From positions 1,302,001-1,366,000 of the forward strand of contig NZ_CP014854.1 in assembly GCF_002214365.1 (NCBI RefSeq): a DNA stretch of 64,000 nucleotides. The letters are read 5' to 3'. This stretch comes from Thermococcus celer Vu 13 = JCM 8558 (GTDB taxonomy: Archaea > Methanobacteriota_B > Thermococci > Thermococcales > Thermococcaceae). The notes beneath the pieces are model-generated. The model ran no database searches. It saw only the letters and a list, made by a program, of their open reading frames with translations, and was not told where the DNA came from. Shown here in pieces: positions 8,176-37,078 of the stretch (positions are counted from its first letter, which is position 1; each line of letters begins with the position of its first letter). The translations under genes and the position numbers were made by a program.

Positions 8176-9129
8176 TCACTCGAACTTGGGAACCGGAACG
8201 CGCTCGAGGAGCTTCTCCATTACGCGCTCCTGGCTGACCCTGGTGTACCACAGCTCCCTCTTGAGGATGAGCCTGTGGCTCAAAGCTGGAACCGCGACCG
8301 CCTTCACGTCATCCGGAATCACGTAGTCCCTTCCCTGGAGGGCGGCGTAGGCCCTCGAAAGCCTGAGCAGGGCAAGGCTTCCCCTCGGAGACGCCCCGAC
8401 CTCTATTTCCTTCCTGTTATCCCTCGTGGCGAGCACTACGTCCGTTATGTACTCCAGGATGGGGTCGCTGACGTAAACGTCCTCTACGGCCCTCTGCATC
8501 TCGATGACTTCCTCCGGGGTCAAGACGGGCCTTACGTCGACCTCCTCCTTCTTCCTGGCCATCCTCCTGCGGAGTATCTCGATCTCCTCCTCCCTGCTTG
8601 GATAGCCGACCCTCAAACGAACCAGGAAGCGGTCGAGCTGGGCCTCGGGTAGGGGATAGGTTCCCTCCTGCTCTATCGGGTTCTGGGTTGCCATGACTAT
8701 GAACGGCCTCTCCAGCTCGTAGGTCTTCCCCTCAACGGTGACCTGCATCTCCTGCATCGCCTCGAGGAGGGCAGACTGCGTTTTCGGGGGCGCACGGTTG
8801 ACCTCGTCCGCGAGGAGGACGTTCGTGAAGATCGGTCCCCTCTTGAACTCGAACTCGAGGGTCTTCTGGTTGAAGACGCTGACGCCGAGAATGTCGCTCG
8901 GCAGCAGGTCGGGCGTGAACTGGACGCGCCTGAACTTAACCCCAAGGGCCGTTGCAAAGCTCTTCGCCATGAGCGTCTTGGCGAGGCCGGGCAGGTCCTC
9001 CAGGAGTACGTGCCCACCGGCCAGGATCGTCGTCAGTATGAGCCTCAGCACCTCGTCCTTTCCCACTATGGCTTTCCTAACCTCATCCAGGACGGCGTTA
9101 CCCTTCGAGCTTACCTCTTCTATCCTCAT
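8176..9129 (-). CDS. MoxR-family AAA+ ATPase
   Basis: A 317-residue AAA+ chaperone-like ATPase. The Walker A region is DLPGLAKTLMAKSFA near residue 48, Walker B is LLADEVNRAPPKTQSALL near residue 105, and the sensor segment is VMATQNPIEQEGTYPLPEAQ. Both the length and the YPLPEAQLDRFL motif are typical of MoxR. Members remodel or help assemble partner proteins carrying VWA-like domains, here presumably the adjacent DUF58 protein. The ATG overlaps the 3' end of the preceding membrane-protein gene by about 30 bases, so the genes are translationally linked. Confidence 0.95.
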   Translation of the reverse strand: MRIEEVSSKGNAVLDEVRKAIVGKDEVLRLILTTILAGGHVLLEDLPGLAKTLMAKSFATALGVKFRRVQFTPDLLPSDILGVSVFNQKTLEFEFKRGPIFTNVLLADEVNRAPPKTQSALLEAMQEMQVTVEGKTYELERPFIVMATQNPIEQEGTYPLPEAQLDRFLVRLRVGYPSREEEIEILRRRMARKKEEVDVRPVLTPEEVIEMQRAVEDVYVSDPILEYITDVVLATRDNRKEIEVGASPRGSLALLRLSRAYAALQGRDYVIPDDVKAVAVPALSHRLILKRELWYTRVSQERVMEKLLERVPVPKFE

Positions 9130-23058: not shown

Positions 23059-23227
23059 CTTGCCACACCTAAAGACTCTTGGTGGCAGGAATTATAAACC
23101 ATCCGCTTTCACCGGGATGCCACCGCGGGTAAATCCAACCCGTTAAATGCGCCCACATGAGAGACCGATAAAACACGGCGACGGGAACGACGGAACATGT
23201 CCTTATACTCCCGTTCGAGGAGCTTGC

Positions 23228-23244
23228 TATAAATATAAAAAGAA
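23228..23244 (+). promoter_or_regulatory. Promoter of the envelope/archaeosortase gene cluster
   Basis: The run GCTATAAATATAAAAAG is a strong TATA region about 50 bases upstream of the first gene, followed by GGTGGGAGG just before its ATG. The upstream 170 bases (23059-23227) contain no gene. Confidence 0.65.
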
Positions 23245-23288: not shown

Positions 23289-24620
23289 ATGAAAATAAAA
23301 GCTTCGTTGATCCTGATACTAATCATCCTGTCCACACTCGTCTCATCATCCACGGTGAGCGCATCCTCGCCGGCGAAAGCCCCCAGGTTACTAATCGTAT
23401 GTAGCGATGCCGAGGACGTGATGTTCGCAAACTCTCTATCAACGAGAGGTTTTGATGTTGATATCCTTTACCTCGGGAAGGATCTGCCCGGAGATCGCTC
23501 CAAACTCTCCGACCTCACCTACCTCGTGAAGTACGATGAGGTATGGATACCTGATCTGAACTTCAGATGGACCGAGGGTGGAAGGCTTACCGCGGAGGAA
23601 ACGGAAGTTCTATCCGAGTACGTTAGGAGGGGAGGGGCTTTAATAGTTGGCCTGAACACGTACACCCAGAGCTGGAGCAGGTCACTCGAAGAGATCACCG
23701 GAACGAGGTTGCTCCGCATAGAGGCACCAAAAACCGACTCTGCGGACTGGGACATCGTTTATGAAGGCAGCGAGTACGCTTACAACGACACCTATCAGGC
23801 AGTGGTGGTGAACGTTTACAGAGGAGAGGTCATAGCCCGATACAAAAACGGCCTCCCCGCGGTGACGATTTCCAGATTTGGGGATGGGGTTGGGGTTCTA
23901 ATGACCTTCAATCCCGTTAACGCCCTCATGGACCGTCCAAACTTCGTAGGATTGTACTCTGAAATCGGCCTGAAAGCCATTGAGGAGCGTTCTACCCCCC
24001 CTCGGCCCCTGTCTAACGGCGAACTCCTCAAACTACAACTTAAAAACCTCCTCATGAATCCTCTCGTTATGCCCCTTCTCCTCCTTGTGGTTCTGGAGGT
24101 TCTGGGTTACGTTGGGTTGATGCCCCAGGGAATCACGGTTCTTCTGGCGGTTCCCCTCCTGCCGTTCTCAAAATTTCTCCTAAAAAGACCCCTATACGAG
24201 AGGATCATGGAAACAGTTGTGACTCTCAAAGGAGTGACTCTATCCGAGCTCTCAGAGGAGACGGAGGTAACGAGGAGACGGCTGAAGTTTCCCCTGGCGT
24301 TTTTAATTCTCAATCACAGGATAAACCTCGTTGACCTGAGGCATCTTGGAGAAAACGAGACCCTGATAGTTTTGAGGGGCTTTGAGGGAGAGGGGGTAGC
24401 TTCGTGGGCCGTGAGGAGGTATCCCCGTCTCATGGAGATAATCGCAAACACCCCTGGGGTGGCCATAATCGACCTCGCCCACAGGGTCAACATGCCCCCC
24501 TACGATGTCCTGAGGTTAATGCGCGAGCTCTCGAAGTACGGGGTGGTCGAGGTCAGAAAGATGGTGGTCGATTACGAGGTATACCCCATGAAGCCCCTCC
24601 TGAGGTGGTTTGAGTTATGA
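23289..24620 (+). CDS. Membrane-anchored winged-helix protein with extracytoplasmic GATase-like domain
   Basis: A 443-residue protein. A signal sequence at 1-26 is followed by an extracytoplasmic alpha/beta domain (about 30-245). This domain has VRRGGALIVGLNTY and a late FGDGVGVLMTFNPVNALMD, a pattern like class-I glutamine amidotransferase or DUF4350 folds. Two membrane helices follow (about 256-300), then two cytoplasmic winged-helix modules (KGVTLSELSEETEVTRRRLK; PGVAIIDLAHRVNMPPYDVL). The architecture suggests a sensor that links an outside signal to transcription without a kinase. It starts the cluster and overlaps the glycosyltransferase gene by four bases. No named family is claimed. 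Confidence 0.72.
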   Translation: MKIKASLILILIILSTLVSSSTVSASSPAKAPRLLIVCSDAEDVMFANSLSTRGFDVDILYLGKDLPGDRSKLSDLTYLVKYDEVWIPDLNFRWTEGGRLTAEETEVLSEYVRRGGALIVGLNTYTQSWSRSLEEITGTRLLRIEAPKTDSADWDIVYEGSEYAYNDTYQAVVVNVYRGEVIARYKNGLPAVTISRFGDGVGVLMTFNPVNALMDRPNFVGLYSEIGLKAIEERSTPPRPLSNGELLKLQLKNLLMNPLVMPLLLLVVLEVLGYVGLMPQGITVLLAVPLLPFSKFLLKRPLYERIMETVVTLKGVTLSELSEETEVTRRRLKFPLAFLILNHRINLVDLRHLGENETLIVLRGFEGEGVASWAVRRYPRLMEIIANTPGVAIIDLAHRVNMPPYDVLRLMRELSKYGVVEVRKMVVDYEVYPMKPLLRWFEL

Positions 24621-25969
24621 GAAAGGCCCTTGCCATTGTATCGGCATTCATAGTGGCCGGCTACGTTGTATACCTTGATTACCTTTTCGTTCAGTGGACG
24701 GCGTGGAAAATGGTTAGAATTACGTTCCCCGACCTTCCACGGTATCCGGTTTATACGTTTGTTCGGTATCTATTCTACCTAACGGGGGCATTGATCATCC
24801 TGGTTTACTTCGCCTACTTCATCTTCTACCTCTACTTCAAGAGCGGAGAAAGGAGGAGACTCACCCCGAGGTTCTTCCCGAAGGTCTCAATAGTGGTTCC
24901 AGCGTACAATGAGGCCATGAACATCGAGAGGTTGATAGAGAGCATACAGTACCAGGACTACCCCTTCGAGAACTGCGAGGTAATAATCGTCGACGACGGC
25001 AGTCAGGACGGAACCGCGGAAATAGCGAAGAGACTGGGGGCAAAGGTGATAAGACACGAAAGGAACACGGGGAAGGCAAAGGCGCTCGAGGACGGCATAA
25101 AAGCCGCAAAAGGGGAGGTCATACTCACGATGGACGCGGATTCGTACTTTGCGGACGGCTCATCTTTAAAAAACGTTGTCGAAAATCTCTTCAGCAGAAG
25201 GTTCATCGGAATCTCCACGGGGGTTGTGAGAATCGAAGAAAGGACGGGTGGCCTCATAGAAAAACTGCAGGCCATAGAGTTCATTCATAGTTTTGAGATG
25301 GGCCGAAGGGTTCAGGGTTACCTGGACTGGTTGCTCGTGGTTCCCGGGGCTTTCTCGGCCTTTAAAGGATACTTCCTGAAATCCCTTCCATCGATCCCCA
25401 GGGACACGCTGGCCGAGGATTTTGAGCTCGCCATGATAGCCTATCGTGCGGGCCTGACCTCAAGCTTCGAGCCGGGGGCTGCGGTCTACACGGAGCCAAA
25501 GCTGAGCTGGAAAGACCTTTATAAGCAGAGGGTCAGATGGTACTACGGGGGACTTCAGGTCATGGCCAAATATCATGACATGATAATGAACCCAAAGTAC
25601 GGGGAGAGGGGGCTCTTTCTGTTCGTCCACATGATCCTTCTTGAGTACATCACCCCGGTGCTCTTCGTGTTCGGGATAATCGTGCTCCCGCTGATTCTGA
25701 TCCTCCAGTACGCCTTTGGATTCCAAATTCTTGACATAATCCTCCCCATCAAGCCCATGGTGCTAATATTCCTTACTGTCTATCTGCTCCAATACCTCGC
25801 AGGGGTTCTTATAAGCGCCCTCGCCATAGCGATGGAAAGGGGCTCCCCAACCGCGGTCAGGTACCTCCCGGCGATCTTCATCTATTATGCAATCTACAAC
25901 CCCCTCCTGTCCCTGGCAAAGGTTGACGCCATGATGAGGTTCTTCCGGGGGGTAATTCAGTCATGGTAG
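24617..25969 (+). CDS. Processive family-2 glycosyltransferase, membrane
   Basis: A 450-residue enzyme with two N-terminal helices, a cytoplasmic GT-A domain and three or four C-terminal helices. Motifs are VSIVVPAYNEAMNIERLI near residue 91, VDDGSQDGT, the DxD motif TMDADSYF, the catalytic AEDFEL and KQRVRWYYGG near 303. The D,D,D,QxxRW set is that of processive synthases (hyaluronan, cellulose, poly-GlcNAc type), which polymerise and export a polysaccharide from a nucleotide sugar. The product is unknown. It is coupled at both ends by overlaps to two membrane-anchored winged-helix genes. Confidence 0.9.
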   Translation: MRKALAIVSAFIVAGYVVYLDYLFVQWTAWKMVRITFPDLPRYPVYTFVRYLFYLTGALIILVYFAYFIFYLYFKSGERRRLTPRFFPKVSIVVPAYNEAMNIERLIESIQYQDYPFENCEVIIVDDGSQDGTAEIAKRLGAKVIRHERNTGKAKALEDGIKAAKGEVILTMDADSYFADGSSLKNVVENLFSRRFIGISTGVVRIEERTGGLIEKLQAIEFIHSFEMGRRVQGYLDWLLVVPGAFSAFKGYFLKSLPSIPRDTLAEDFELAMIAYRAGLTSSFEPGAAVYTEPKLSWKDLYKQRVRWYYGGLQVMAKYHDMIMNPKYGERGLFLFVHMILLEYITPVLFVFGIIVLPLILILQYAFGFQILDIILPIKPMVLIFLTVYLLQYLAGVLISALAIAMERGSPTAVRYLPAIFIYYAIYNPLLSLAKVDAMMRFFRGVIQSW

Positions 25970-27132
25970 GGAACAGAAGCTTTTTTATCTCCCTGGGGAC
26001 GGTGTTGCTTGTGCTCCTCATGGCGTCCCCGATAATCGCAGGGACGGTCACCTACCTCTACTCCGACTCCGGGGACATTCCACTGTACAGGGCAATTTCC
26101 AATAAAACCACCGTTGCTCTCTCCGAAAATCCAGAGGGAGGGGTGATCCTCGCCATCGACCTCAACTACGGGTTTATGAACGAGAGTAGCAGAGAAACCC
26201 TTCCAGCCCTGCTGAAAGAAGCCCAGAAGGGCAAGACGGTTATAGTCGGACTCAACACCCTGAGGAGCCTCACGGTGGAGGCACCCACGACCCTGAGGTT
26301 ACTTGGGATATCCGTTAACTTCACGACGGCAGGGATCGTAGAAGTCAAACCCAAAAACGGCTTCAAATTCAAGGCCTTTGGATACGACTCGGACGTTTAC
26401 GGGGTAGCAATGATAAAAGCTCCTCACGAGAAGGTCATTATTAACTCCTCGGGGATTCCGGTACTCGTTGAGATACCCGTGGGGAAGGGAAAGCTCGTAG
26501 TCCTCACCATAAACCCCTCGGCCTATTACCTTGATACAAAGAATCCCGCAGTTGTAGACTTCATAGTCGCGGTGATAGAATACTACTCCAAGGAAGGCCT
26601 TCCGTTGACGGCCGTTGCCGCGGCCGTTATTCTGAGCGCTGGTGCCGCTTACGCCACGTTTTCGAACAATCCCCACGCGGAGAAGTTCAGGAGATGGATA
26701 AAGTGGATTCCCCTCGCCATAGGGAGGTTCATGATACCCCCCGAGAAGGTGCTGAAGAACAAAACGAGGGAGTCCATCTACAGGTACATAGAGGCAAAGG
26801 GGTATTCCACCGTCGTAGACGTGGCCTCAACGTTTTCCATCTCAAGGACAAACGCCAGATGGCACCTTAACGTTCTCAAGAGGGCCGGGCTTTTGGACGA
26901 AACCACGATCCAGAACACCACCATATACCACCCCCCGGGTAGAGAAAACAGGCAAAAAGCCGTAAGGGCATTTCTGCTTGAAAACAAGATTCGGAGGGAG
27001 ATATACAATCTGTTAATCCGGGGAAAGAGCATAAGCGATATAGCGAGAACCCTCGGGCTGAGCAAGTCCACGGTTCACCACCACGTAAGCGTTCTCAGGG
27101 AGTACGGGGTCGTGGGCAATGAAGAGGGATAG
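25963..27132 (+). CDS. Second membrane-anchored winged-helix protein with extracytoplasmic domain
   Basis: A 389-residue protein with the same plan as the protein at 23289. A signal-anchor (VLLVLLMASPIIAG) precedes an extracytoplasmic alpha/beta domain (about 35-205) that includes KGKTVIVGLNTLRSL and VGKGKLVVLTINPSAYYLD. One or two helices near 213-234 follow, then two cytoplasmic winged-helix modules (ESIYRYIEAKGYSTVVDVAS; KSISDIARTLGLSKSTVHHH). The second has a good MarR/ArsR-like recognition helix. It overlaps the glycosyltransferase gene and the archaeosortase gene. It is probably a paralogue of the first, duplicated within the cluster. Confidence 0.75.
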   Translation: MVGNRSFFISLGTVLLVLLMASPIIAGTVTYLYSDSGDIPLYRAISNKTTVALSENPEGGVILAIDLNYGFMNESSRETLPALLKEAQKGKTVIVGLNTLRSLTVEAPTTLRLLGISVNFTTAGIVEVKPKNGFKFKAFGYDSDVYGVAMIKAPHEKVIINSSGIPVLVEIPVGKGKLVVLTINPSAYYLDTKNPAVVDFIVAVIEYYSKEGLPLTAVAAAVILSAGAAYATFSNNPHAEKFRRWIKWIPLAIGRFMIPPEKVLKNKTRESIYRYIEAKGYSTVVDVASTFSISRTNARWHLNVLKRAGLLDETTIQNTTIYHPPGRENRQKAVRAFLLENKIRREIYNLLIRGKSISDIARTLGLSKSTVHHHVSVLREYGVVGNEEG

Positions 27133-27616
27133 CGTAATCTTTAACCTCCTGCTCCTGCTCGGATACCTCATCGGATTTTCGATAGTCGTGCTGGTGATAG
27201 GGGCGAAATTCGGGAAGCCTCTGGTTTTAATCGAGGCAAAAAACGTCCATGCCCTCCTTAGTTTCCTCGGCGTATCAAACACCCTCCTCGGCAACATGAT
27301 CTATCTCCCGGGTGAAAGGCTGGCATTCGAGATAACCTGGCAGTGCAGCGGAACGTTTACTTTAAGCCTTTACACCGCTGTGTATTTAGCTTTCCCAAGG
27401 ATAAGGAGAAACGTACGGGAATGGATCATCGGCGCCTCAGTGATATACCTCCTGAACCTCCTTCGGGTGGCAATTGCCATCTATCTCTACCACCGCTCAG
27501 GGGAGGGGGTCTTCAACCTCTTCCACTACACGATAGGACCCGCCATCCTCTTCGGGGCCGTTGTCATCCTCCTCGGCCGTCTCCTCGTGAAGAGCCTGAG
27601 GGCCCAACAGGATTGA
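27119..27616 (+). CDS. Archaeosortase/exosortase family protein
   Basis: A 165-residue membrane protein with about five helices. The three conserved catalytic residues of the archaeosortase/exosortase superfamily are present in order: Cys76 in WQCSGTF, Arg116 in LLNLLRVAI and His136 in LFHYTIGP. These enzymes cleave a C-terminal sorting signal of secreted proteins and transfer them to a lipid or other acceptor. Subtype cannot be named with certainty. It overlaps the preceding winged-helix gene by 14 bases. The likely client gene follows 200 bases downstream with its own promoter. Confidence 0.88.
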   Translation: MKRDSVIFNLLLLLGYLIGFSIVVLVIGAKFGKPLVLIEAKNVHALLSFLGVSNTLLGNMIYLPGERLAFEITWQCSGTFTLSLYTAVYLAFPRIRRNVREWIIGASVIYLLNLLRVAIAIYLYHRSGEGVFNLFHYTIGPAILFGAVVILLGRLLVKSLRAQQD

Positions 27617-27832
27617 GCACGATTTCGGCAATTTTGATGAGAAATCTTTTTTAAGCATTGACGATCGACATTAAATTGAGGACCAAAGGCGATGTTCCCT
27701 GGTTTGAAAGTTTAACCAAAAATGTTATTAAACAAAAACTGAACCGATTGTTCCAGGCTTACCGTATCGTTCGAGAGTCCGTCTAAAGATATTATAAGTT
27801 TCCATGGGGAGACTAAAAAGGGGGTGAGAGAG

Positions 27833-28537
27833 ATGGGAACCCTTAGACTGGTGAGAGATGCGGTGGTGGTAGTCACTTTACTCCTAATCCTCACGGGGTT
27901 ATCCAACGCCGCCGGAGGGACGCTCAGCGGGAACGTCCTCCACGTCTGGAGCCACGATATGGGCAGTTCGTATACGGAAATTCACAACGTCAACAGGGGC
28001 ATCAAAAAAGATACCTACGCTATCGAGCAGACGGTTCTGGCGAAAAACTACAGTGGGAGTGCCGGCGTTACGTTGCTTGAGGTCCAGGTAACCGATGGTG
28101 GCAGAACCAGGTGGTACAGCGTGTACTGGTATGGCGGAAACAGCGTGGACGTGTTCGGCAAAACCGTGAACCTCGACATGAGCGTCCCCCACACTTACAG
28201 GATAGAGGTTACACGAAACAACGTCAAGTTTTACATCGATGGGGGTCTTGTTAAAACCATTAAAAAGAGGCACATAACCAAAATCCAGCAGGTCAATGCC
28301 GGAAGGTGGGACGAGGGGAGCACCTACGACCTCTACATAGACGACGTCAGGGAGTACTGGAACGGGGATGTAATCGCTCAGGAAAACTTCGACGACGGGA
28401 GCGACGACTTCTATACCTCCGATGTGTCAAGGGGCAGTGGAAACAGCGATGAGGAGATAATACAGAGCGAGGGCGTTCCGGAGTTCCCGTTCCTCGAGCC
28501 GGTGATAGATGAAGTCATGAAAGCCCTGAACCTCTGA
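27833..28537 (+). CDS. Secreted protein with VPEFP C-terminal motif (possible archaeosortase client)
   Basis: A 234-residue protein. A signal peptide (VVVVTLLLILTGLSNAAGG) precedes a beta-rich domain of about 170 residues with a laminin-G/concanavalin-like look (YRIEVTRNNVKFYIDGGLVK; YIDDVREYW). The C-terminus contains EGVPEFPFLEP, which resembles the tripartite signal start of PEF-CTERM proteins. However, no hydrophobic helix or basic tail follows; it ends after VIDEVMKALNL. The ATG at 27833 follows GGGGGTGAG. A TATA-like ATATTATAAG lies near 27788. The function is unknown; secretion is well supported, sorting is inference. Confidence 0.75.
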   Translation: MGTLRLVRDAVVVVTLLLILTGLSNAAGGTLSGNVLHVWSHDMGSSYTEIHNVNRGIKKDTYAIEQTVLAKNYSGSAGVTLLEVQVTDGGRTRWYSVYWYGGNSVDVFGKTVNLDMSVPHTYRIEVTRNNVKFYIDGGLVKTIKKRHITKIQQVNAGRWDEGSTYDLYIDDVREYWNGDVIAQENFDDGSDDFYTSDVSRGSGNSDEEIIQSEGVPEFPFLEPVIDEVMKALNL

Positions 28538-28546
28538 GGGTCTAAT

Positions 28547-30970
28547 ATGAGGCTCGAATCAGCCCGTAAAGAGGCTTTGTTTTTTCTTATAGCTATTTTT
28601 ATGGCCTTCCTAACCCTGAAGGGCTTTCTTGGAAGCGGTTATCCCCCGAGCTGGGGCGGGGACGCCTACGGCCACCTCTTCAAAATCTGGAAGCTGATGG
28701 GGGGTTACCACCCATGGATCGAGGACTGGTACGGTGGCTATCCATTCCTCCGCTTTTATCCACCGCTTGCCTATTACCTCGGGGCACTTCTCGGCGTTTT
28801 GACCCATTCTGCGACCTGGGGCTACAAGCTCTCGGCCCTCCTATCCCTGATAATAGGGGCTCTTTCGATGAGGTTTCTCCTGAGGGAGCTCGGGTTCTCA
28901 GACCTTCCGTCCTACCTCGCCTCCCTTGCATACGCGTTTGCCCCCTACCATCTGCGGATTCTGTCACCTGAGGGGAACTTCCCGAGGTTCGTGGCGATAA
29001 ACCTCGCCCCTCTCCTCGTCCTTGGGTTCATATACATCTTCCGCGGTGATAGAAGAAAGGCCCTAACGGCCGGGGTTCTCATCTCCCTCGTCCTCTTAAC
29101 ACACCACACCCTCGCGGTCTCCTTCGGCCTCGTTCTCCTTTTCCTGCTCCCCTATCTCCGGGAAACTAAAAGGGAATGGAGAACTCCTATTCAGAACCTG
29201 TTTATCGCCGGGATCGTCGCGTTCCTGATATCGGCCTTCTGGGTTCTGCCGTTCATCCTGGAAAAGGGCAACGCCCATTTCCTAAAGGAGAATGCCATAG
29301 ACTACCTTTTCAAGTTCCAGAGCGCCAGGCTGGGGGAGATACTCCTTCCCACAGGCCCCTGGTCGTTCTACCAGGGGGCCCTGATGTACCTCGGGATTTT
29401 CGGGGCATTGATGACAATTAAGAGAAAGAAAACGCTCTCCATAGCTGTTTTGGCGGGCGTGTTCACCTCGCTCCTGCTCTCGCTCGGGTACTACGGGCCC
29501 ACACCATGGTTAAACAGACTTCCCATACTCGATTTAATTCCCCCCTACCGGTGGCTCGGCACCGTGGAATTTCTGGCGGCCATCGGGTTCGCCATGCTTC
29601 TGGAGTTCGTTCTTAACTATGCCCCGAAAATCCATCCAGATAAGTTCAGGAAAGTGGCTCTGATAATATCCCTCGTTCTCCTGTTGCTTTCGCTCTCGGA
29701 CCTCAGGTTCCGGGTTGATAGCCTGAATCCGGAGGAATTCCCCGGGAATTACATGGGGGTTCTCAACTACATCGGAAACGACAACGGAACCGGCTGGAGG
29801 TACTACCAGTGGGGGCTGGGGATAACGCAGGGCTCAAGGGTCGCCTTCACCCCCGCCCTCACCAAAAAGCCCGCTCTCGACGGCTGGTATCGTCAGGGCG
29901 ATCCAGCCTATCCCGGGCATAGCTATCTCAACTACGCCGTTCTCAACGACCTCAATTTTGCCAGAAAGGCCCTCAGGGCTTATTCCGTGAAGTACATCCT
30001 CCTCGACTCCAGCTTTAAGGATACGCCAAGGGTCGAGGAAAACCTGAAGTCGATTGGCTTCAGGGAGATTTATTCGGTCGGAAACTTCAAGCTCTACTCC
30101 TGGGACAACCACAGCCTTTTGACGCCGGAGGCGGGCGTCCTCGTCGTCGGGAACTGGCCCCTTGACACCGGCGTGGAATACGAGAGGGGGAAATTCGTAG
30201 ATGACCACGCGGACTCACTTGGGAGGTACTCCCTCGTCATCCTGAACAATTACGTGTACAGGGACCCGCTTGTATGGAGGAAGCTCGAGGACTACGTCAG
30301 GGACGGGGGAATTCTCGTGGTAAACACCTTCGGAAGTCCCGACGCCGAGGCTACAAGGTTCGGCGTGAGATCAACCATAGTAAAGGTTTTTGGAAAGGCC
30401 AACCTCAGCTCCGGGGTTTACAACGTCTCCCGCTTCTCAAACTTCACGTACGAGGGAAAGCCATGGACGGCAACCGCCTACACCGGGAATCTGACTCCCC
30501 TGATAAGGATGGGGAACCTCACGGTGCTCGGGGTTAAGGAGTATGGCAAAGGCAGGATATACTTCGTGGGTCTCAACCTGCCCTACCACGCTGTTTACAG
30601 CAGAAACGATTACGAGGCCAGGCTCTTAAATGAGATTCTCTCAAGGTACATCGCCCCGCCAAAGATTGAATACAGGATAGTCGAGGTTTCGGATGGAGAA
30701 ATCGTCATGAAGTACACCGCCGACAGGAGCACGGCGGTCATCCTGAGCGAGAACTACTACCCCCACTGGAGGGCTTACGTTGATGGAAAAGGCATCAAAA
30801 TTTCAAGGAATGAACAGTTCGGCCTCATCGAGCTCCAGCTCCCGGCGGGAGAGCACGAAGTAGAGCTGAAGTTCGAGGACCCCTATTCACCCCTGGGATA
30901 TCTGAGCCTCATATCACTCGTGGCCGTGTTGGGGTTTTTGGCGTGGGACAGGGTAAGGAGAAAAGGATAA
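28547..30970 (+). CDS. Large PTPS-related membrane protein with extracytoplasmic GATase-like domain
   Basis: An 807-residue protein. The N-terminal half (to about 395) has roughly ten membrane helices and a conserved loop YGGYPFLRFYPPLAYYLGAL, the pattern of 6-pyruvoyl-tetrahydropterin synthase-related membrane proteins. These look like GT-C glycosyltransferases. Residues about 520-690 are extracytoplasmic and include LEDYVRDGGILVVNTFG and YGKGRIYFVGLNLPYHAVY, matching the outside domain of the two winged-helix proteins upstream. A beta domain and a final helix (LGYLSLISLVAVLGFLAW) close the protein. It starts nine bases after the secreted-protein gene, so these two are probably cotranscribed. 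Confidence 0.8.
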   Translation: MRLESARKEALFFLIAIFMAFLTLKGFLGSGYPPSWGGDAYGHLFKIWKLMGGYHPWIEDWYGGYPFLRFYPPLAYYLGALLGVLTHSATWGYKLSALLSLIIGALSMRFLLRELGFSDLPSYLASLAYAFAPYHLRILSPEGNFPRFVAINLAPLLVLGFIYIFRGDRRKALTAGVLISLVLLTHHTLAVSFGLVLLFLLPYLRETKREWRTPIQNLFIAGIVAFLISAFWVLPFILEKGNAHFLKENAIDYLFKFQSARLGEILLPTGPWSFYQGALMYLGIFGALMTIKRKKTLSIAVLAGVFTSLLLSLGYYGPTPWLNRLPILDLIPPYRWLGTVEFLAAIGFAMLLEFVLNYAPKIHPDKFRKVALIISLVLLLLSLSDLRFRVDSLNPEEFPGNYMGVLNYIGNDNGTGWRYYQWGLGITQGSRVAFTPALTKKPALDGWYRQGDPAYPGHSYLNYAVLNDLNFARKALRAYSVKYILLDSSFKDTPRVEENLKSIGFREIYSVGNFKLYSWDNHSLLTPEAGVLVVGNWPLDTGVEYERGKFVDDHADSLGRYSLVILNNYVYRDPLVWRKLEDYVRDGGILVVNTFGSPDAEATRFGVRSTIVKVFGKANLSSGVYNVSRFSNFTYEGKPWTATAYTGNLTPLIRMGNLTVLGVKEYGKGRIYFVGLNLPYHAVYSRNDYEARLLNEILSRYIAPPKIEYRIVEVSDGEIVMKYTADRSTAVILSENYYPHWRAYVDGKGIKISRNEQFGLIELQLPAGEHEVELKFEDPYSPLGYLSLISLVAVLGFLAWDRVRRKG

Positions 30971-35428: not shown

Positions 35429-35456
35429 CATTATAATTGGATGGCGGGTGTTGACC

Positions 35457-37078
35457 ATGGCCAAGAAAATGGTGGTTGCACTGCTGGTAGTTCTGGTAGT
35501 CCTCAGCGTATTCGCGGTTCCAGCGAAGGCGGAGACCCTCGAGAACGGCGGTGTCATAATGCAGGCCTTCTACTGGGACGTTCCGAGCGGGGGAATCTGG
35601 TGGGACACGATAGCCCAGAAGATACCTGACTGGGCCAGCGCCGGTATCTCAGCCATATGGATTCCACCGGCGAGCAAGGGCATGAGTGGTGGTTACTCCA
35701 TGGGCTACGACCCCTACGACTACTTTGACCTCGGCGAGTACTACCAGAAGGGAACCGTGGAAACGCGCTTCGGCTCCAAGGCGGAGCTCGTGAACATGAT
35801 AAACACCGCCCACGAATACGGGATAAAAGTGATAGCCGATATAGTCATCAACCACCGCGCCGGCGGCGACCTGGAGTGGAACCCCTTCGTGAACGACTAC
35901 ACCTGGACCGACTTCTCAGGAGTTGCCTCCGGAAAGTACACGGCCAACTACCTCGACTTCCATCCGAACGAGGTTGAGGCGAGCGACCCCGGGACGTTTG
36001 GAGGCTATCCAGATATATGCCACAAGAAAGAGTGGGACCAGCACTGGGTCTGGGCGAGCGATGAGAGCTACGCGGCATATCTAAGGAGCATCGGCGTCGA
36101 CGCCTGGCGCTTCGACTACGTCAAGGGCTACTGGCCGTGGGTCGTCAAGGACTGGCTGGACTGGTGGGGCGGCTGGGCCGTCGGCGAGTACTGGGACACC
36201 AACGTCGATGCCCTCCTCAACTGGGCCTACTCGAGCGGCGCCAAGGTCTTCGACTTCCCGCTCTACTACAAGATGGACGAGGCCTTCGATAACAAGAACA
36301 TCCCGGCCCTCGTCGACGCCCTCCAGAACGGCGGAACCGTCGTCTCCCGCGACCCCTTCAAGGCCGTAACCTTCGTGGCGAACCACGACACGGACATCAT
36401 CTGGAACAAGTACCCCGCTTACGCCTTCATCCTGACCTACGAGGGACAGCCGGTCATATTCTACCGCGACGACGAGGAGTGGCTCAACAAGGACAAGCTC
36501 AAGAACCTCATCTGGATACACGACCACCTGGCGGGACTGTTTCATAAATTGGAAAACAAGTGGATCTTTTGATGACTTTTGTTTTCCGAAATTTTTAAAT
36601 AGTTTTGAGTCATATTTTTTTGATGGTGTGGCAGTCTCCGATATGTGGGGTTTTAAGCCCGAATGGAGGCTGAAAAAACGGAAGATGTGGGGAGTTTCCG
36701 TTCCCCCCGAAAGCCACCCGATGAAGCTGGAGGGCGGAAGGTTATCTGTTACGATAGTTTCAAAAGTAGCGGATAACCAGAACGGGAAGCACCAGCATAG
36801 TCTACTACGACAGCGACGAGCTCATCTTCGTGAGGAACGGCTACGGGAACAAGCCAGGCCTGATAACCTACATCAACCTCGGCTCGAGCAGGGTTGGAAG
36901 GTGGGTCTACGTCCCGAAGTTCGCGGGCTCGTGCATCCACGAGTACACCGGCAACCTCGGAGGCTGGGTCGACAGGTACGTCTCCTCCGGCGGCTGGGTC
37001 TACCTTGAGGCTCCCGCCCACGACCCTGCAAACGGGGAGTACGGCTACTCGGTCTGGAGCTACTGCGGCGTTGGGTGA
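35457..37078 (+). pseudogene. amyA: Secreted GH13 alpha-amylase gene disrupted by a 248-bp insertion
   Basis: The frame encodes a signal peptide ([21 protein letters not shown]) and a near-identical copy of the Thermococcus/Pyrococcus extracellular alpha-amylase. Catalytic residues are intact: Asp in [11 protein letters not shown], Glu in AVGEYWDTN and Asp in FVANHDTD. After WIHDHLAG (36536) the frame enters foreign sequence and stops at 36572. The C-terminal beta domain resumes at [15 protein letters not shown] (36785) and ends SVWSYCGVG. Removing 36537-36784 restores an open frame of 458 codons, the family length. The truncated product would keep the catalytic barrel but lack domain C. GCGGGTG upstream of the ATG is the ribosome binding site. 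Confidence 0.92.
36537..36784 (+). mobile_element. Small non-autonomous element, copy 1 (inside amylase)
   Basis: This 248-bp insertion shares a strongly conserved core (TCCGATATGTGGGGTTTTAA onwards, then GGAGTTTCCGTTCCCCCCGA) with a second copy at 43204-43430. Both copies begin CTGTT and end near AACCAGAACG. A hairpin lies near each end: GGAAAACAA with TTTGTTTTCC on the left, GGTTATC with GATAACC on the right. No long terminal inverted repeat or clear target duplication is seen, and there is no transposase. The subterminal palindromes suggest an IS200/IS605-mobilised (PATE-like) element; this is inference. Confidence 0.82.

Follow-up and report, generated by a model that had tools for sequence, protein, structure and literature searches.

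Six adjacent genes of the archaeon Thermococcus celer Vu 13 = JCM 8558 appear to work together in displaying a secreted protein on the cell surface. They lie at positions 23289 to 30970 of a 64,000-nucleotide stretch of contig NZ_CP014854.1 (positions 1,302,001 to 1,366,000, forward strand), here called the window, and are labelled P0001 to P0006 in order. Comparative data support the view that they form one system, built around the archaeosortase ArtF (P0004). We consider it rather likely that this cassette is a self-contained, self-regulated archaeosortase module, in which a glycan is made, the secreted protein P0005 is displayed and the cassette is controlled together with a few partner genes. 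Below, genomes are cited by G numbers and loci by L numbers.

Layout and conservation of the cassette

All six open reading frames (ORFs) were verified on the forward strand at the coordinates of the first-pass annotation, which had also described them as mostly overlapping or separated by very short gaps. P0001 (23289 to 24620), P0002 (24617 to 25969), P0003 (25963 to 27132) and P0004 (27119 to 27616) overlap successively by 4, 7 and 14 nucleotides, and P0006 (28547 to 30970) begins 9 nucleotides after P0005 (27824 to 28537). The single exception is a gap of 207 nucleotides ahead of P0005. A TATA-like box and a conserved element stand in this gap, upstream of P0005, and genes 1–4 and genes 5–6 are therefore probably transcribed as separate units.

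The gap and the separate promoter could also mean that the two groups of genes are separate systems, neighbours by chance. Conservation data largely refute this and leave it very little probability. Homology searches found ArtF in 9 of 94 Thermococcaceae genomes and no match in any other genome of a 115-genome sample of the phylum. In all nine, the gene order P0001-P0002-P0003-ArtF-P0005 is kept, with P0006 next in eight. Such fixed-order co-occurrence, together with the absence of ArtF elsewhere in the sample, is why we treat the six genes as one system; it was also the outcome of the neighbourhood check across Thermococcales that had been suggested for this locus. Flanking genes vary among genome groups, and thus the cassette occupies several chromosomal sites. 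The same order at several sites, the sparse co-occurrence and an element shared by both promoters all argue against chance neighbours. Pairwise divergence of ArtF tracks that of P0001, P0002 and P0003 (r 0.92–0.98); the divergence of P0005 is independent of the other cassette genes (r about 0.3).

P0001 orthologues occur in 10 of the 94 genomes. The pair of P0001 and the glycosyltransferase P0002 can exist alone: it does so in G076 (L067:7946-10671), just downstream of an MscS-like gene, and a second copy of the pair is present in G081 (L070:2858-4755), with no ArtF, P0003 or P0005 near the pair in either genome. In G007 (L013), P0002 and P0006 are each broken into two ORFs, so the cassette is possibly decaying there, unless these are frameshift errors of the assembly.

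ArtF and the secreted protein P0005

P0004 had been annotated as an archaeosortase, and it is a member of ArtF, a family already modelled by NCBI (TIGR04293, 245.5 bits against a curated cut-off of 150). Residues C76, R116 and H136 are invariant in seven aligned orthologues; they are presumed to be catalytic from their role in the superfamily. In the papers searched, ArtF came with no client, no promoter element and no description of its locus.

P0005 (possible alternative start at ATG 27833) has a signal peptide followed by a likely jelly-roll domain with a weak GH16/laminin-G-like match: it scores 18.3 bits against a Pfam cut-off of 22 for GH16, with a profile match to the PDB at E 0.003 and no NCBIfam match up to E 1. 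Its orthologues are found in exactly the nine ArtF genomes (E<1e-80). In their alignment 35 of 289 columns are invariant, and seven of these are consecutive, spelling VPEFPFL (28475 to 28495) about 20 residues from the C-terminus in all nine. No other invariant run exceeds two columns, and a run of seven was reached in 0 of 20,000 shuffles. The motif and the short amphipathic tail that follows it (28475 to 28534) are our candidate for the ArtF signal, one without a membrane helix. Known archaeosortase signals have a membrane helix and a basic end, the tripartite form having been defined for ArtA substrates (PMC7157517). P0005 shares with that type the short C-terminal motif and lacks both the hydrophobic helix and the basic end.

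A helix hidden behind a frameshift or readthrough was considered and rejected: the only hydrophobic out-of-frame stretch belongs to the start of P0006, and G006 has no P0006. Further secreted proteins with a PEFPF tail were sought in seven ArtF genomes with an exact DNA pattern, which misses the motif where it is encoded by other codons or has a changed residue; besides P0005, only short or mid-protein matches were returned.

Two comparisons connect the tail with sorting. First, the P0005 of locus L015 has a body of the window type (51% to the window, 30–36% to the other type), and its tail is that of its ArtF clade (73–76% to L012 and L014). The body has been exchanged and the tail kept; thus, the tail travels with ArtF and not with the body. 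Second, distant relatives of P0005 occur in ArtF-free genomes that have other archaeosortases, and there they end in ordinary membrane-helix tails, with the motif VPFFG in G002, G004 and G036 and APIPG in G087 (L074). The APIPG motif resembles the APIPV that precedes the helix ending a small protein in the same genome, whose gene adjoins that of an ArtE-like archaeosortase (L079:7926-8483 and 8524-8913). Given the helix tails of these relatives and the tail that follows ArtF, P0005 is very probably a sorting client, as the first-pass annotation had proposed in calling it a probable secreted client, and ArtF would be the enzyme that cleaves it.

Alternatively, P0005 might not be an ArtF substrate at all. 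VPEFPFL would then be a docking peptide, bound by one of the GATase-like outside domains or by the GT-C enzyme of the cassette, and the substrate of ArtF would be a different protein or a lipid-linked partner. A motif followed by neither a membrane helix nor a basic end would fit this idea, as would the independent divergence of P0005. We nevertheless regard it as improbable, considering the membrane-helix tails of relatives in genomes with other archaeosortases, the tail that follows the ArtF clade where the body was exchanged, and the intact tail in G006, where P0006 is missing.

The relatives of P0005 in G004 and G036 have a second domain, which in G004 is Spherulin4 (PF12138, 4e-38). Known Spherulin4 relatives include amino-sugar polymer hydrolases. 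Taken with the PgaC-like character of P0002 (see below), this domain hints at an amino-sugar polymer, as a lead only.

The genome of the window also contains a second, longer archaeosortase, at about 333.0–334.1 kb of G000:C1 (L076:9012-10055; also L077, L078 and L080). It recurs within a conserved cluster in about 13 other Thermococcus genomes, and its neighbours end in VPFF(G/S), a helix and RR. It passes the general archaeosortase signature and fails every curated type model, and may represent a class of archaeosortase that has no name yet and uses a signal of its own. A DUF1616 protein that had been taken for this second archaeosortase was the wrong candidate; the ORF given here is the correct one.

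The tethered winged-helix proteins and a shared promoter element

By profile comparison, P0001 and P0003 are full-length paralogues: they are homologous over almost their full length (hhalign E 1.7e-8), and BLAST aligns P0003 with a P0001 orthologue at 27% identity (E 2e-5). P0003 has a signal helix, an outside domain (residues ~27–208), one predicted membrane helix (213–231) and two winged helices (~262–386) with strong Pfam matches (HTH_20, 4.7e-19). With a signal helix and a single membrane helix, its winged helices should be cytoplasmic. P0001 has a signal sequence, an outside GATase-like domain (~30–235), two adjoining hydrophobic stretches (259–277 and ~275–298) and two winged helices (~300–433), which match weakly in Pfam (E 0.006) and resemble the SelB winged helices in a Foldseek comparison of folds. 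Because these two stretches adjoin, its winged helices cannot be assigned with confidence to one side of the membrane. The first-pass description of both proteins (signal, outside domain, membrane helices and two cytoplasmic winged helices) is therefore consistent for P0003 and ambiguous as to side for P0001.

The same annotation had P0001, P0003 and P0006 sharing one outside domain. This stands for the two paralogues; for P0006, what stands is the fold. P0001 and P0006 both match PF08532 (Glyco_hydro_42M), P0001 above the cut-off of 25.8 bits (26.3) and P0006 below it (22.0 bits; 1.3e-4, residues ~527–702, positions 30125 to 30652), and profile searches of the PDB agree. AlphaFold models give P0001 a mean predicted local distance difference test score (pLDDT) of 76, with variable domain parts, and the P0006 ectodomain 87. 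Foldseek matches both models to the same GATase-like domains in the PDB, from GH42 and GH164 enzymes and a beta-1,2-glucosyltransferase. The direct profile match of P0006 to P0001 is weak (16% probability), as is that to P0003 (2%). Scores stayed weak even with added sequences, and so we rejected a specific kinship of the P0006 domain with those of P0001 and P0003 and accept the shared fold alone. Paralogues of the P0006 type outside the cassette align through the same outside region. A common ligand for the regulators and the biosynthetic protein, as first suggested, is therefore not supported: P0006 shares only the fold, and its domain is not particular to the cassette.

GATase-like domains of this fold are those of GH42 trimerisation (PF08532); in the cassette no glycosidase domain accompanies them, and they form part of a membrane regulator and of a GT-C enzyme. 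Elsewhere, a protein at L083:6207-8060 (G009) combines a CBM96 carbohydrate-binding module with a GATase/DUF4350-like domain; the latter has weak similarity to the P0001 outside domain. Membrane-tethered one-component regulators of the ToxR/CadC type also combine an outside sensing domain and a DNA-binding winged helix in one protein. In P0001 and P0003, by contrast, the chain order is reversed (sensor first, two winged helices last) and the sensor fold is unrelated.

A candidate target for these winged helices is the element CGTTCGAAGnnCTGRCTAA. Alignment of upstream regions places it directly before the TATA-like box upstream of P0005 in all nine cassettes; in the window it reads CGTTCGAGAGTCCGTCTAAA (27768 to 27787, forward strand), immediately followed by the TATA-like box GATATTATAAG. 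It also stands upstream of P0001 where that gene starts the operon (L012, L013 and the window, where upstream alignment and pattern search place CGTTCGAGGAGCTTGCTATA at 23212 to 23231, forward strand, before an A/T-rich TATA-like stretch), and upstream of an MscS gene where the latter appears to precede P0001 (L010, L011, L014, L015 and L068). The cassettes of G060 and G014 contain an additional module of three genes, the last coding for an ODP protein, and the element precedes this module as well; the MscS and ODP identities are from Pfam. Every complete cassette examined has the element before both operons.

Genome-wide, the exact pattern has 16 matches in the nine cassette genomes, 14 of them in cassettes and one at an unlinked MscS orthologue in G007; eleven other genomes have 4, and the reversed pattern has 7 over all 20. 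A longer pattern with up to three mismatches gives 17 matches: 15 in cassettes, the G007 MscS gene and one at 785,746 of the window's genome (G000), upstream of an unlinked copy of the ODP module. It has no match in five genomes without a full cassette or in any reversed control. In the window itself, two exact matches were observed against 0.02 expected by chance, a figure that shows rarity only, the pattern having been derived partly from these very sites. Marking is not universal: the MscS orthologue in the window's own genome is without the element, as are the ODP modules of G055 and of eight cassette-less genomes. We take the element-marked set (both cassette operons, MscS and the ODP module, including unlinked copies) to be a predicted regulon.

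Since one element is found at both operons and at partner genes that are not linked to them, control of the system probably lies with the tethered winged-helix proteins, in agreement with the regulatory role first suggested for them. P0003 is the likely binder, since its winged helices are unmistakable and the element is absent upstream of the P0001-P0002 pair where P0003 is lacking. The element might instead be bound by another transcription factor of the genome; P0001 and P0003 would then act otherwise, perhaps as scaffolds in the membrane or on different targets. Such a factor would account for G057, in which a perfect element precedes the ODP module and neither P0001 nor ArtF was found (P0003 was not searched for there). 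Yet among the genomes searched all remaining matches are confined to those bearing the cassette, the module lacks the element in the eight genomes with no cassette, and P0003 has two strong winged-helix matches; we therefore think a different factor unlikely.

The ODP module itself encodes proteins of about 100 residues and about 268 residues (beginning MKRK) and an ODP metallo-beta-lactamase (L012:10225-12125, L015:7266-9172, L109 and L139:17696-19501). It is present in roughly one third of Thermococcaceae genomes, and its first two proteins have no Pfam or NCBIfam match.

Glycosyltransferases, related systems and a proposed mechanism

P0002 had been described as a synthase of the processive polysaccharide type, and this is borne out: it has a GT2 domain (PF00535, 2e-33) and the DxD, ED and Q-x-x-R-W motifs of processive GT2 enzymes, read in its sequence as DDG, DAD, ED and QRVRW. 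It is PgaC-like, matching TIGR03937 at 2.4e-47, below that model's cut-off. P0006, with its large outside part, is confirmed as a PTPS_related membrane protein (PF10131, 234.5 bits against a cut-off of 26.4). That family has been placed in the GT-C glycosyltransferase clan (PMC7801869), and P0006 is accordingly a predicted GT-C-type glycosyltransferase. Its C-terminal part also matches YfhO-type GT-C proteins (6e-10) and PgfM1 of the Streptococcus Pgf protein glycosylation system (1.3e-4, far below the 1400-bit cut-off), but over its full length the family is PTPS_related.

The closest described arrangement is the XrtG system of Firmicutes, in which a CTERM target is encoded with an exosortase and two glycosyltransferases, e.g. 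LP_RS09075-09090 of Lactiplantibacillus plantarum (PMC12854382). Like the cassette, this locus is compact and combines a single target tagged at its C-terminus with a single exosortase-superfamily protein and two glycosyltransferases. The XrtG target, however, has a Firmicu-CTERM helix tail and P0005 has none, and the cassette adds two tethered winged-helix proteins and the regulon element to the XrtG-like core. P0004 scores 31.3 bits with the XrtG model TIGR03110 (cut-off 102.75), and P0002 is a distant match to the XrtG-associated glycosyltransferase TIGR03111 (5.7e-30, 104.5 bits, cut-off 363.95). Because both scores are below the curated cut-offs, the cassette is, on these models, not a member of the XrtG system. 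The first-pass statement that no described system has such a combination was nevertheless too strong: the XrtG system shares the core, though not the regulators, and ArtF already had a name. The ArtA/PGF-CTERM system of Haloferax (PMC7157517) shares with the cassette an archaeosortase-superfamily enzyme and, presumably, the C-terminal processing and anchoring of a surface protein. It differs in that ArtF is another family, with one dedicated client in place of many and with glycosyltransferases in its locus.

Elsewhere in the window, an alpha-amylase gene is broken by about 250 bp of unrelated DNA (36536 to 36788, inside the ORF at 35448 to 36572 and beyond). Its frame stops after HDHLAG and resumes downstream of the insert; long terminal inverted repeats were looked for at the interruption and not found.

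In the mechanism we propose, P0002 would act at the membrane to produce a glycan or a sugar donor. P0006, judging by its family, would build or transfer sugar outside from a polyprenyl-linked donor. P0005 would be exported through its signal peptide. ArtF would then read the VPEFPFL tail, cleave the protein and attach it to a lipid or glycolipid of the membrane; its jelly-roll domain, taken to bind carbohydrate, would in this way be shown on the cell surface. P0003, and probably P0001, would monitor the outside via their GATase-like domains, and their winged helices would act in the cytoplasm on the element beside the transcription factor B recognition element (BRE) and TATA box. Both cassette operons would be controlled in this way, together with an MscS channel gene and the ODP module in the genomes where these carry the element.

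Several observations weigh against this reading. No membrane helix follows VPEFPFL: the remaining 14–17 residues have a mean hydropathy of 0.75–1.19, and the best 19-residue window reaches at most 0.89. Alignment of the tails shows no basic end either. The topology of P0001 is ambiguous, P0006 is missing from the G006 cassette and so is dispensable there, the ODP module of G057 carries its perfect element, and the 3' part of the element may be a general BRE. On the other side, the XrtG combination of target, sortase and two glycosyltransferases is a precedent that supports an archaeosortase module. The fuller picture is possible but tentative: a surface-display circuit with built-in feedback, combining a helix-less sorting signal, a single client with an exchangeable body, and tethered outside-sensing winged-helix proteins that control the cassette, a mechanosensitive channel and the ODP module. 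The VPEFPFL signal type without a helix, and the promoter element with its regulatory circuit, are put forward here as new, as open claims.

Little is known of how Thermococcales control their cell envelope, and the papers searched named no ArtF client. The cassette offers a pair of one enzyme and one client with a seven-residue signal, along with a candidate regulator-DNA pair, and its small predicted regulon would tie a mechanosensitive channel to protein sorting and to the surface glycan. Should the tail without a helix indeed prove to be a substrate, not every archaeosortase signal would require a membrane helix and a basic end, as the current rule has it.

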